In this document: positions 59,265 to 64,000 of the stretch, one piece after another
Layout of the letters: every line of letters starts with the position of its first letter
Position numbering within the stretch: position 1 is the stretch's first letter
Assembly: GCA_017646625.1 (NCBI GenBank)
Contig: JAGCMF010000029.1
Span: forward strand, 1-64,000
DNA from: Alistipes sp.
GTDB lineage: Bacteria > Bacteroidota > Bacteroidia > Bacteroidales > Rikenellaceae
Reading direction: 5' to 3'
DNA: 64,000 nucleotides
Program-made: the position numbers and the translations under genes
Notes under the pieces: generated by a model
The model's database searches: none
What the model saw: the letters and a program-made list of their open reading frames with translations, nothing else
Told to the model about the DNA's origin: nothing

Positions 59265-59290
59265 CTCTTCATATAACTCCTTATATTTAG

Positions 59291-59308
59291 TTACTTGCCG
59301 ATGCAGAA
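59291..59308 (-). other. mnmE 3'-end scar: proposed attachment site (attR-like)
   Basis: The minus strand reads TTCTGCATCGGCAAGTAA, encoding F-C-I-G-K-stop. That is the near-invariant C-terminus of MnmE (TrmE), whose last cysteine is catalytic. Upstream of it on the minus strand there is no mnmE sequence; the preceding codons (G-F-T) and the following bases to the right are unrelated. SGI1-type elements are known to integrate precisely at this position of mnmE. The scar therefore marks the distal junction: chromosome to the left (patatin), inserted DNA to the right. Confidence 0.65.
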
Positions 59309-59797: not shown

Positions 59798-62014
59798 TTA
59801 CTTTCTCAAGAAATCAGATAATGATATAGTTGTTAATCCCAATCCAACTGCTCTTGCTTGGAGCATATTGTCAGAAGTCAACAGTATTGGGTGCTCAGAT
59901 TTAAACTTTAACGCAACTGATAGAATCTTGCAGTCGGGATTATGCTTGTCAAATCCCTCTGGTAGCAGAGCTACATCCGCATCTTCCATTCTTGAGAAAT
60001 GCTTTGTAAAAGCAATGCTGATATTTTTAGCAGCATCATTTAATTTCTTTTTATCCACATCAGCTTTAAGTTTTAGTTTGTCCAACTCCTCCAGAACCAT
60101 TGAAGGGATAATGATTTTGTAGTGGCTTCCAATTTTAGAGATTATATCTGGACAATTAACGAAAACATTCGTATCAATGATATATATATTATCCTTGCCT
60201 TCAACTATTTCTTTTCTCTTTTTCTCAAACTTTGATAGGTCGATTTTCCCTGTAATTGTAACACCTATATTACCTGCCGTGATTTTTTGTGGTTCAAAAG
60301 CAACAAACTCTTTTTCATTAGATTTTAGTAGGTACTTTCGCACTTCTTCTGTCATATTTTGGCGAAGAAGTAAATTATCAGAAACAATGACAGTACTATA
60401 TTTGGCACGAGATGTTGCTACATTAAATAATTCGTTTTCCAATGAATATCTTAAAGATGCATTTGGTACAAGAAAAATACAGAAATCCACAGTCAGACCT
60501 TGCACTCTATCAACTGTTTCAATTCGTACATTATCTGGGATCTCCTTTGTTAATGTCCAATTCAAAATAAAGTACTTTTGAAGCTGCCTAACAGTATCCC
60601 TAAATTTAGACAAAACAGCGATCTCTGCCTTAGGAGATTCCTTTAACAGATTATTCACAAGTTTAAAGATGTATTCAAATGCATTACTAGGAGCTTTGTT
60701 CCCTATTTCTAGATCTAATCCAACATAAACAGGACCTCCACCAGGATGAAGTTGTTCTATTTTAGATGGAATAACCTGCTCTTCAGATACAGATTTGAGA
60801 TTGTTATCGTAAAACACTCCCGTACACTCCGCACCTCGTTTTGTAAGTCGGAATGTGTCACTTAGCATATAGGATTCAAATGTAAAGTTTTGGCAGATTG
60901 TGTCAAATCCTCTAACAATAGATGCCCAATTATATTTATTTATGACATCTTCATTTGTTATTACAATAGGCGACAACTGGTTCTGGTCTCCGATCCAAAT
61001 GATTTTCTTGCCCAACTTTTTTGAAGCAGCTATCATTGGCAATAGTGCTTGACTCGCCTCATCCATTATAACATAATCAAATGGCTTTTCATCCATTTCA
61101 TCTACCCAACCGCTTGAAATATAAAATGTCGCTAGCGATAGCCTGCCAGAAGAAGCATTGCAAGCATTTTCAGTAATACCCTGCAACTTTGGCAATTCAC
61201 GACTTTCATCAACAGTCAAACTCGTTTTTGACACCAAACCCTGTTGAAGGAATGTCTGAATATCCTCTTTTTTCGCTAGCTCTATTAAAGCTTGATTTGT
61301 CAATGCCGTCACTAGTACGCTTTTGTTGTTAGACAACAACTTTGCAATTAATTGAGCCATTCTATATGTCTTGCCTGTTCCAGGAGGACCTTGAATGACC
61401 ACACAATCATTCTGCTGCATTTGTGAAAGCAGAAGCGATGTAAAGTCTGTTTTTGCTTCTATTTTTTGAGGATTCCAATTACTGTCACTTTCATCGTAAT
61501 CTAGAATATTGCTTATATCATCACAGTTCGAATTTCTAACAACTGATATAAGATTCTGCAGATACTTTAATGGTGGATCTTGAGGTCCAAATGCAATTAT
61601 AGGGCTCTCATTTTCGAGCACTAATGCAAATTCAGTCGTTAAATTTTTGATGCCTATGAGACAAAAATCCTCATCTGATTTTTGTAGCCATACACATAAT
61701 GCGTCCGAATATGTTCGCTGATATTTTTGTCTTAGATCTGCCCACGAATTAGCACCCCAATTTTTAAAGCTACCCATTTCTCCAATAAGGTAAGATGCCG
61801 TCCAGAAAGAATTCTTTCTTGGCATATTATCAGAATTACGAACTTTAAAAATTGCCATTCCGTTAGGCTGTAATTTTACAAAACGGCCAACAAACACCTC
61901 TCCTCGTTCTTTTAGAATTAGTGCCTTTGTACTAACAACTTGCTCGTATTCCTTAATCTGGGTTTCCAACTCAGTATTAAGAAATTTCTCGTAATCTTGT
62001 CTTGAATACTTCAT
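59798..62014 (-). CDS. Upf1-like SF1 helicase fused to a C-terminal PIN nuclease domain
   Basis: 738 residues. Residues 1-190 are unassigned. The SF1B (Upf1/DNA2, COG1112-like) helicase spans about 190-595: Walker A G209-PPGTGKT216, Walker B DEAS (318-321), motif III GDQNQLSP (342-349), motif V VDRVQGLTVD and motif VI VATSRAKY. From about 607 a PIN domain follows with acidic residues D614 (IIDTNVF), E642/E643 (VLEELDKLK), D694 (NPDCKIL) and D715 (LTSDNML), a full catalytic set. A single-strand RNA or DNA translocase coupled to an RNase is the simplest reading. It starts two bases after the stop of the large upstream gene, so they act together. AT-rich codons (AAA, TTT, ATT) contrast with core genes. 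Confidence 0.85.
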   Translation of the reverse strand: MKYSRQDYEKFLNTELETQIKEYEQVVSTKALILKERGEVFVGRFVKLQPNGMAIFKVRNSDNMPRKNSFWTASYLIGEMGSFKNWGANSWADLRQKYQRTYSDALCVWLQKSDEDFCLIGIKNLTTEFALVLENESPIIAFGPQDPPLKYLQNLISVVRNSNCDDISNILDYDESDSNWNPQKIEAKTDFTSLLLSQMQQNDCVVIQGPPGTGKTYRMAQLIAKLLSNNKSVLVTALTNQALIELAKKEDIQTFLQQGLVSKTSLTVDESRELPKLQGITENACNASSGRLSLATFYISSGWVDEMDEKPFDYVIMDEASQALLPMIAASKKLGKKIIWIGDQNQLSPIVITNEDVINKYNWASIVRGFDTICQNFTFESYMLSDTFRLTKRGAECTGVFYDNNLKSVSEEQVIPSKIEQLHPGGGPVYVGLDLEIGNKAPSNAFEYIFKLVNNLLKESPKAEIAVLSKFRDTVRQLQKYFILNWTLTKEIPDNVRIETVDRVQGLTVDFCIFLVPNASLRYSLENELFNVATSRAKYSTVIVSDNLLLRQNMTEEVRKYLLKSNEKEFVAFEPQKITAGNIGVTITGKIDLSKFEKKRKEIVEGKDNIYIIDTNVFVNCPDIISKIGSHYKIIIPSMVLEELDKLKLKADVDKKKLNDAAKNISIAFTKHFSRMEDADVALLPEGFDKHNPDCKILSVALKFKSEHPILLTSDNMLQARAVGLGLTTISLSDFLRK

Positions 62015-62016
62015 AA

Positions 62017-64000
62017 TTACAAATCATTATCGTCAAATAATTCCTGAACTCCCTCTGTCTTTGAATCCATTCCAAATGACTTTATTGTATCAAAAGCATT
62101 GTACTTAGGATTTTTTACAGCAAATGTTGTTCTCTTAACATATTGAAATACTTTGCTTAACGCAGCATAATAGTGCTTGGGTGTATATTCTGTATCAAAT
62201 ATGAGATTCACATTCGAATCGCTATTAAAGATATCATCAGCCGTTACGCTATGTACATCTTTCCCATCCCACACCATGAGAACATTTTTGCTATTAGATG
62301 TCAAAAACTCAAAATCAGTAGCACTTAAATATATATATCCACCTTTAGCACTCTTTATTACTAAATTAATTTTTTCTCCGTTGGGACTTATTATATCATT
62401 AATTTGATTCACAGATCGCCATGTTTGGAAAAGGTTATCATCTCCAGCATCATATCGACTCCAATTATCACAAATATACCCGTAAGATTCCAATTTTCTT
62501 CGTACAACTTCTTCTGCTTCTATATGAGCGTCCTTCTGTTGCTCTTTTGACAATCCATCGCGTTCTATTATCTGACCGGACTGTACGCTAAGTTCACTTT
62601 GAGCATGCCTATGAATATCTTCAATCGTATCATATTCATTCTCTCTACTATTGCCCGCTAGCTCTAGTTCTCCAAATTTGGCGCGATATCGTCTGATTAT
62701 TGCATCTTTTTCCTGAATAGATTCTGACAACGACTCAATCTTCTTATTTTTTTGTGCGATTTCATCATTCTTTTCATTTAATTCATCAACAGAAACCATA
62801 AACAATTGTGTCCAATCATTTTTTGTAAATGGCACCTTCGCATCATCGCAAACTGTCAATAAAGTCGTTTCTATGCGTTTATTCTTAGCATTTATATATA
62901 ATACATTGGGGATAAAATATGCGTAATCGCCAACAGTTTCTGTATATAAATGTATCTGTTTGTAAACACCTCTTTTGGGCATTTCGCCTTCAATTAAGTT
63001 TATGTGAATCTTGTTTTTAACGAACTTTTCATATCTATCATTAACCCATTCACATGCCTGTTGATAGTCTTCTATTTCATATTTTGTGACTAATTGTAAA
63101 CGAGTGAATATCTCTTTTAAAACTTTTACTTGATTTTCTCCTGTAAAAGGTGTTTCAAGAGTGATGGCCCAATCCAAGAATGCTGTAATCTCAGCAGTAT
63201 TTGTAGACAACGAAATGGATTCGTTTTTCAAGAATGAATATCTCCTCTTCATTTCATCTGACAATGGACCCTTGACACCAAGCTGGATCATGAATTTTTC
63301 TTTATCTTCACTATTAGCCCATTGTCTTACAATAGAAGACAATCGTTCAGTACCAACCGTTACATCATCACAATTAATAAATTTACCAACGATCTTCTGA
63401 TTCGGGAATAAGTTAATGTATTTGTCAAGAACATCTATTTTGTGTTCAAAGAAATATGAAAGCACATTAGATACAAACTGCTCGTCCGAAATAGGTATTG
63501 TAGCTCGTTGGCCATATGAAACATATGCAAGGTTGTAACATATGTAAAACGCATATTGTTCTGGCGTTCTTGTGGCTCGTATAGCCGATAACCTCTCTTT
63601 TATAACACTATTTGACATCCTAGATAATGAGAATAAATTCTCATTACCTTCTAAATCTGATATCAACTCTTTAACAATGTTAAATGTTGAGTTATCAAAC
63701 TGATTTGGTAAAATCTGCGACAACGAGAAATGGTATTCTTTCCCTGATATGCAGATAAGAACATCATCACTTATCGTGTATTGAGATAAATTTTTGTTAT
63801 CTATGTATATCAGTCCCTTAAGCTTTTCGATGTTAAACGCACTCAAAAGTGCCAGCCTTATTACACGATATTCAATTGATTCCTTGGTCGATGACGCATT
63901 AAATGATATTTGCCCGAATCGCTCTATAAAATAGTGTTTTGCTCCATCTGTTTTCTCGACAATACTCAACAATTCGATTGTCGCACCATTTTTATTAATT
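62017..64000 (-). CDS. C-terminal part of a large island protein (cut by window edge)
   Basis: At least 660 codons; the frame stays open to base 64000 (it reads INKNGATIELLSIVEKTDG across the first TTG), so the true start is outside. The visible part has a mixed alpha/beta body, a coiled coil (DELNEKNDEIAQKNKKIESL and onward, around 200-250 residues before the end) and a C-terminal domain: EEVVRRKLESYGYICDNW then NDIISPNGEKINLVIKSAKGG and IYLSATDFEFL. The last resembles NOV_C/DUF3883 (PD-(D/E)XK-like), often found at the end of giant sacsin/HSP90-like ATPase proteins in defence islands; the match is loose, with V-I-K where E-V-K would be expected. Function unknown. Confidence 0.7.
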   Translation of the reverse strand, partial: INKNGATIELLSIVEKTDGAKHYFIERFGQISFNASSTKESIEYRVIRLALLSAFNIEKLKGLIYIDNKNLSQYTISDDVLICISGKEYHFSLSQILPNQFDNSTFNIVKELISDLEGNENLFSLSRMSNSVIKERLSAIRATRTPEQYAFYICYNLAYVSYGQRATIPISDEQFVSNVLSYFFEHKIDVLDKYINLFPNQKIVGKFINCDDVTVGTERLSSIVRQWANSEDKEKFMIQLGVKGPLSDEMKRRYSFLKNESISLSTNTAEITAFLDWAITLETPFTGENQVKVLKEIFTRLQLVTKYEIEDYQQACEWVNDRYEKFVKNKIHINLIEGEMPKRGVYKQIHLYTETVGDYAYFIPNVLYINAKNKRIETTLLTVCDDAKVPFTKNDWTQLFMVSVDELNEKNDEIAQKNKKIESLSESIQEKDAIIRRYRAKFGELELAGNSRENEYDTIEDIHRHAQSELSVQSGQIIERDGLSKEQQKDAHIEAEEVVRRKLESYGYICDNWSRYDAGDDNLFQTWRSVNQINDIISPNGEKINLVIKSAKGGYIYLSATDFEFLTSNSKNVLMVWDGKDVHSVTADDIFNSDSNVNLIFDTEYTPKHYYAALSKVFQYVKRTTFAVKNPKYNAFDTIKSFGMDSKTEGVQELFDDNDL

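Follow-up and report, generated by a model that had tools for sequence, protein, structure and literature searches.

Several described systems share parts with the locus analysed here. Tiamat is a single-gene system, and its TmtA, a name used here as in the PADLOC models, presumably stands for Tiamat. Mokosh has a kinase-type domain in type I and a PLD nuclease in type II, and in PhoH2 a PIN domain and an RNA helicase-type ATPase are present on one chain. The mechanism of Tiamat is given as unknown in passages of two publications (PMC12926258, PMC10482375). For the type II and type III CoCoNuT systems (CnuH/CnuE), passages of PMC11090510 describe UPF1-like helicases joined to a range of nucleases, with different partner proteins and proposed RNA targeting, a logic akin to the working model given below. 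In a stretch of 64,000 nucleotides from Alistipes sp. (the window, meaning the whole of the DNA analysed), one gene encodes a single-chain fusion of a UPF1-type superfamily 1 (SF1) helicase and a PIN domain, and it begins 2 nt past the end of the gene for a giant ATPase related to TmtA. We consider the pair to be, on balance, probably a two-protein anti-phage system that is predicted to recognise and cut RNA and is carried on a likely mobile segment.

The sequence-only reading had placed an Upf1-like helicase and a PIN nuclease on one chain, and this is borne out by the Pfam matches, the PDB sequence matches and the predicted folds. Pfam assigns AAA_11, AAA_12 and related helicase-type P-loop models to residues ~195–546, and PIN_4 to residues 611–732 (E value 1.1e-19, exceeding its cut-off). 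Of 33 Pfam families, 25 are listed, and those above their cut-offs are all of P-loop/helicase or PIN type. The PDB entries closest in sequence to the helicase are those of UPF1. It had been asked whether the C-terminal domain might be something other than PIN; the PIN_4 match and the predicted fold identify it as PIN. In an alignment of 53 sequences, comprising the window sequence and 52 of the 275 homologues fetched, motif I is invariant at Q208, G209 and P211–T216, with P210 present in at least 90%. Other invariant helicase columns are D318, E319, S321, Q322, G342, D343, Q344, Q346, T500, R503, Q505, G506 and N531–A537. In the PIN domain D614, D645, D694 and D715 never vary and E643 is present in at least 90%, while D592 and E597 are invariant in the linker. 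Judged by these columns, SF1 motifs I, II (DEXX), III, V and VI and the PIN acidic residues are intact, as had been claimed, and the proposed key residues K215 and D614 were correctly placed, within GPPGTGKT and IIDTNVF, respectively. The protein search gave 7999 scored candidates, of which 4473 reach an E value of 1e-3 or lower; the 120 matches listed cover 96–100% of the query at 72–100% identity. This homologue coverage, together with the invariant motif residues, rules out a chance open reading frame (ORF) or a pseudogene.

The structural models point to a UPF1-type fold that includes the 1B barrel and stalk region, and to a PIN fold with conserved acidic residues in the C-terminal part. 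Residues 1–190, for which a structure prediction had been suggested, are modelled as a helix and a barrel/stalk region aligning with UPF1 and IGHMBP2. UPF1 possesses an N-terminal Cys-His (CH) domain, which has no counterpart segment here, as the alignment of model m13ea882fc563 starts at its residue 1–2, already facing residue 293–295 of human UPF1. In structure comparison, the best Z score of the PIN model (m241f0a2b9dca) is with the PIN domain of SMG6, tied with that of a bacterial, uncharacterised PIN protein from Thermus; the nearest RNA-decay proteins are SMG6 and Nmd4, and VapC matches score well below these. By sequence alone, a search of the PDB with the PIN domain gave nothing convincing (best E value 0.98). 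Because of the Thermus tie and the unconvincing PDB search, common descent of this PIN domain and SMG6 is not claimed, and the link to nonsense-mediated decay is one of likeness of parts. Thus, of the earlier equation with eukaryotic Upf1 and Smg6, the likeness of parts and modelled fold stands, with UPF1 and SMG6/Nmd4 among the top structural matches to the respective halves, whereas the tie with a bacterial PIN weakens the equivalence. The eukaryotic proteins are, moreover, separate, in contrast to the one chain here, and PMC12923823 states that the active site of human SMG6 is completed only with SMG5. A prokaryotic system joining UPF1-type and SMG6-type parts would be useful for asking about the origin of the parts of nonsense-mediated decay.

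The whole partner gene (C30:62017–67215, 1732 aa) is complete in its contig and is cut by the end of the window. On the basis of profile matches, its product is a relative of TmtA of Tiamat: TmtA models match with E values of 1e-89 over residues 321–827 and 1.6e-65 with the best stretch at 1066–1652. The protein includes a sacsin-type Hsp90-like ATPase (SACS; E value 1.8e-8) and an S1 domain, which scores 22.0 bits (cut-off 22) when the protein is scanned whole and has an E value of 2.1e-6 for the N-terminal part alone. Its C-terminal part, including the portion in the window, has no Pfam domain above cut-off. All five related partners scanned match TmtA models, that of locus L017 end to end (1147 bits) and that of L026 over residues 138–1356 of 1531 (856 bits). 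Three S1 stretches each are found in the partners of L016 and L036, and two in that of L003.

The pairing recurs. Nineteen helicase loci were collected (L002–L005, L016–L024, L026 and L035–L039; L001, L006–L015, L025, L030–L034 and L040 are repeats of loci numbered otherwise), and in 17 of them a giant gene lies directly upstream at a spacing of -14 to +6 nt, in agreement with the earlier attention to the large upstream gene. The two without it are L037 and the fragment L023. By BLAST the giant gene matches the window partner in 16 of the 17 (the window's own included; weakest L017, E value 7e-6); the giant ORF of L019 has no ATPase start and was recognised by its position and, by eye, by C-terminal similarity to the L020 partner. 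The fusion is not a fixed feature of the family, since a PIN domain is present in 11 of the 19 loci (the genes of L002 and L004 being broken) and absent in seven, the fragment L023 being left unscored. A Pfam scan of ten helicases agrees, with PIN_4 in 4/4 that carry PIN and 0/6 that lack it. The system appears to have the TmtA-like ATPase and the helicase as its core, which lay beyond the reach of the sequence-only reading. All 10 of 10 loci with PIN have an ATPase with a long N-terminal extension, versus 2/6 loci without PIN (Fisher p 0.008; L019 omitted, its ATPase start missing), and no claim is made on this association because the tree holds only two independent pairs.

The PIN domain looks like a swappable module, apparently exchanged between distant helicases. 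The helicases of L016 and L039 share 25% identity and their PIN domains 76%; for L016 and L019, which both lie in genome G442, the values are 28% and 77%, for L020 and L026 they are 27% and 79%, and for the window and L035 they are 60% and 54%. The PIN data reject the helicase clade L019+L020+L039 (approximately unbiased (AU) test, p 9.4e-5). Conversely, the helicase data reject the PIN clade L016+L019+L039+P0157+P0204 (AU p 1.1e-5) and the clade L020+L026 (AU p 1.5e-5), and they likewise reject the grouping of every PIN-bearing helicase in one clade (p 4.7e-59). This last clade was defined by the trait, whereas each of the others was taken from the opposite data set. All trees were quick ones built from 22 of the 275 fetched proteins; L004 (internal stop) was left out of the PIN tree, and L002 (split) and L023 (a 312-aa fragment) out of both. 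The case for exchange is made by the AU tests in combination with the matrix of identities. A stronger constraint on PIN alone would not reverse the identity ranking, whereas the exchange of PIN cassettes that we infer does. Two results speak against exchange: the helicase tree carries a long-branch warning, and the clade of L035 with the window is not rejected on the PIN data (p 0.217), although the identities of L035 had looked suggestive. PIN domains 76–79% identical on helicases 25–28% identical point to an exchange of warheads within one protein family.

The ATPases paired with a helicase tend to end in acidic residues followed by a final hydrophobic one (DDNDL, FDDIFDF, SDDDIFNF, NDNEF and NDNDY). 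Expressed as a rule, i.e., at least three Asp or Glu among the last ten residues and a hydrophobic last residue, the tail is present in 11/17 partners versus 3/107 other ORFs of the same loci. It is present in 0/9 solo TmtA-like proteins (Fisher p 0.0024; counting the qualifying contig-edge case as solo raises p to 0.014), and these p values are descriptive, since the rule was set post hoc and the partners are related to each other. Such tails recall the acidic C-terminal tips of single-stranded DNA-binding (SSB) proteins, and the tail may dock on the helicase.

These features can be arranged in a working model. The giant ATPase would act as the sensor of infection by way of its variable N-terminal region, a role suggested because this region varies and, in the branch of the window, carries S1 RNA-binding domains. 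Docking and release of the helicase would depend on a nucleotide-driven change of the ATPase and on its acidic tail. The helicase would then travel along a transcript or ribonucleoprotein to which it is bound, delivering the PIN domain tethered to it for endonucleolytic cleavage. The PIN-less helicases of the family might act as a motor alone, or with nucleases from neighbouring genes. We put forward tentatively, and with less assurance than the anti-phage role itself, that the pair represents an unnamed form of RNA-targeting immunity, in which foreign RNA or its ribonucleoproteins would be sensed by a TmtA ATPase of S1/Hsp90 type, whose acidic tail would load a UPF1-type helicase bearing an interchangeable SMG6-like PIN domain; bacteria would thus have a one-chain counterpart of UPF1 and SMG6 serving antiviral RNA decay.

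The gene is rare. At an E value of 1e-100 it was found in one of 150 relatives, i.e., the window's own genome. At 1e-60, with PIN-less relatives counted too, there were hits in 10/393 sampled genomes of the order and 2/395 of the phylum (own included) and in 5/301 genomes of a large family, with PIN in four of the ten, two of the two and three of the five loci, respectively; with the L016 protein as query, 2/395 genomes of the class were found. The question raised beforehand, whether the fusion is an essential core enzyme present in all relatives, is answered by this distribution: the gene is accessory, and a core RNA-processing enzyme is rejected. A phage or plasmid gene was also considered and rejected, as the plasmid and phage collections contain no match covering 80% of the query. 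Partial matches were obtained in 53 plasmid records and one phage record, the widest plasmid match extending over 58% of the query with 23% identity; no DNA match was found in E. coli genomes, and no match among viral contigs.

The pair likely sits in a repeat-bounded mobile segment. The probable island of the sequence-only reading gains from two results, a GC content of 35–36% for the pair (46.7% for window positions 1–59199) and a 22-bp direct repeat, TTAGTTACTTGCCGATGCAGAA, with one copy on each side of the pair. Even when one mismatch is tolerated, the genome has no further copy of the 18-bp core of the repeat. Reverse-complemented, this core encodes FCIGK and a stop, the C-terminus in 12/24 mnmE loci read, and the mnmE genes of genomes G006 and G001 have exactly this core at their 3' ends. 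The host's own mnmE matches the 22-bp repeat at 20/22 positions, and its end has 36/38 positions in common with the left copy. Read by eye for ORFs of at least 60 aa, the repeat-bounded 8.8-kb segment contains just three genes, those of the HTH_17 protein, the partner and the helicase–PIN fusion, and it fits an mnmE-targeted island whose integrase lies elsewhere. The mnmE 3' end looks like an integration hotspot in the genus: by eye, the host mnmE is directly followed by two ORFs resembling D12-class adenine methylases (at L073 in G000:C29, 3866–5561), and that of G001 by an ORF resembling an integrase N-terminus (at L075, 2613–3524). The coordinates of the features are given in Table 1.

Table 1. 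Positions of the features described (window coordinates unless a contig or locus is named).
Feature	Position	Strand	Basis or remark
Helicase–PIN fusion gene, 738 aa	59798..62014	-	ATG start, no internal stop
Residues 1–190, N-terminal helix and beta-barrel/stalk region	61445..62014	-	aligns with the matching part of UPF1 and IGHMBP2 (model m13ea882fc563)
Residues 191–570, SF1 helicase core, motifs I (K215), II (D318 E319), III, V, VI	60305..61444	-	Pfam AAA_11/AAA_12, invariant columns
Residues 571–608, linker with conserved GKIDLSKFE stretch	60191..60304	-	predicted local distance difference test (pLDDT) <50 at 569–575 and 588–595
Residues 609–738, PIN domain, D614, D645, D694, D715	59801..60190	-	PIN_4 and model m241f0a2b9dca
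TmtA-like partner, C-terminal 660 residues in window	62017..63999	-	2 nt gap to helicase gene
Acidic C-terminal tail of partner, VQELFDDNDL	62020..62049	-	tail comparison
22-bp direct repeat, left copy	59287..59308	.	matches mnmE 3' end
22-bp direct repeat, right copy	C30:68048-68069		outside window
HTH_17 gene between repeats	C30:67337-67720		Pfam
G442 helicases	L016 9930-12218; L019 332-2674		

Defence genes adjoin several relatives of the pair, a context for which a check had been proposed. In L004, the pair is followed by genes that PADLOC identifies as a type II methylase and a restriction enzyme; close to L020 it identifies a DrmC-like PLD gene, and L037 has a GmrSD-like gene nearby (HEC-06, Orf5, SspE and type IV models). 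By the same scans, the PIN-less pair of L021 is surrounded by a DrmD-like helicase, pieces of IIG/DrmMI-type methylases and a DruE-like gene, gene types that L021 has in common with ARMADA and Druantia III; the gene set of this locus resembles ARMADA content as given in passages of PMC12458937, and none of these gene types is found in the window. Of the ten neighbours scanned, one had no match and one a weak match only. In L021 (101–18523) and in L024 (4198–18042), the PIN-less helicase and TmtA-like pairs lie amid further large genes.

A number of points weigh against the anti-phage, RNA-directed reading. Host RNA metabolism and single-stranded DNA are further settings in which PIN domains and UPF1-type helicases can act. 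The window partner fits the TmtA models in part and not end to end, and its S1 match lies only at the cut-off in the full-length scan. S1 was recognised only in window-like and L016-like partners; the partner N-terminal regions of L020, L021, L026 and L039 have no Pfam match, and those of L024 and L035 have only matches below cut-off. In the order, the TmtA model was found in 13/247 genomes, with the helicase adjoining in three, none in nine and one at a contig edge, so that most TmtA-like genes there stand without a helicase. The rule for the acidic tail was chosen after the tails had been seen, the 17 partners are mutually related, and just two of the nine solo proteins used for comparison (L100 and L101) are close TmtA relatives. 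The ten neighbour genes scanned with PADLOC came from five loci and were hand-picked, not random. No integrase was seen inside the 8.8-kb segment. Finally, an empty-site comparison was impossible: when 40 other genomes of the genus were searched for the patatin gene of the left flank, a single one had it, on a 5.8-kb contig where its neighbours differ.

The pair might instead be directed against DNA: phage DNA or recombination intermediates would be the substrate of the helicase and ATPase, while single-stranded DNA or R-loops would be cut by PIN. The known activity of such parts on single-stranded DNA would allow this, yet we regard it as unlikely given the S1 RNA-binding domains of window-like partners, the closeness of the helicase to UPF1 among PDB sequences, and a PIN domain nearest to SMG6 and Nmd4, even if tied with the Thermus protein. 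Marginally less probable again is an abortive, toxin-like module in which, upon infection, PIN would cut host tRNA, rRNA or mRNA and growth would stop, as with VapC. The VapC matches score well below those of SMG6 and Nmd4, the helicase would confine cutting to bound RNA, and no antitoxin-like gene is present among the segment's ORFs of at least 60 aa, a reading that does not extend to shorter ORFs. A housekeeping or stress enzyme of RNA quality control, carried by islands by chance, would suit parts which PMC11463774 describes as UPF1/SMG6-like components of eukaryotic RNA surveillance, but it is very improbable for a gene that is absent from 149/150 relatives and rare elsewhere, has a lower GC content than the rest of the window, is bounded by repeats and has relatives with defence neighbours.

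As a two-protein anti-phage system, the pair is made of parts of known kinds, and it is related to Tiamat without being filed under it. Tiamat is encoded by a single gene, in contrast to the ATPase and UPF1-type helicase arranged together in the 17 loci described above, and the relatedness of the partners to TmtA extends end to end in L017 and over most of the length in L026; the branch of the window adds an N-terminal S1 domain and the acidic tail. With Mokosh (MkoA, MkoC) the fusion has the SF1 helicase core in common (MkoA E value 1.2e-30, best stretch at residues 292–560), whereas the PLD nuclease and the kinase-like part are absent here and a PIN domain and a TmtA-like (SACS/S1) partner are found instead. 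Likewise, the McrB-type GTPase and the CnuE winged helix-turn-helix (wHTH) nuclease of CoCoNuT were not found among the ORFs of at least 60 aa in the repeat-bounded segment, where a TmtA-like ATPase is present instead. In PhoH2 the PIN domain is N-terminal, whereas here it is C-terminal, and the PhoH2 NCBIfam model reaches 19.5 bits against a cut-off of 680, with the best stretch at the PIN domain (model positions 3–137 of 427). In the main text of PMC11090510 the terms PIN, sacsin and Mokosh are absent, and the same holds for Tiamat, sacsin, Hsp90 and UPF1 in that of PMC12458937. No description of the helicase–PIN/TmtA pair was found among the papers listed in searches of titles and abstracts, and the TmtA–UPF1 pairing, the fused PIN domain, its apparent exchange and the acidic tail were not seen in the titles, abstracts and passages covered. 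New here are the conflict between PIN and helicase trees and the acidic tails that helicase-paired ATPases tend to have and solo relatives lack. A TmtA-like branch with a helicase, and often PIN, would provide a biochemical handle on which nucleic acid PIN cuts and on whether the tail controls the helicase.

Further arrangements were observed among the relatives. DUF3883/TmtA-like genes without such a helicase are present in Hymenobacter plasmid records. On an Ensifer adhaerens plasmid (L078, 4668–14389) a TmtA-like gene has a helicase-related gene on one side and, on the other, a TM0106 RecB-like nuclease, the C-terminal part of which matches the window helicase at 25% identity, and which is possibly another nuclease on the same theme. 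In L037 (5550–9767) a PIN-less relative without a TmtA-like partner is beside the GmrSD-like gene, on the opposite strand. The helicase gene of L002 (10001–12217) is split and the partner and helicase–PIN genes of L004 (4841–12222) are interrupted, through decay or assembly errors in metagenome-assembled genomes (MAGs). The helicase and PIN domain of L003, on a 10.2-kb contig of a Eubacterium sp. MAG assigned to Bacillota, are 71–78% identical to those of the window, presumably by wrong binning or recent transfer. On a Sulfuricurvum kujiense plasmid (L079, 6228–14396), a NERD gene is followed by a TmtA-like DUF3883 gene directly before qatABCD.
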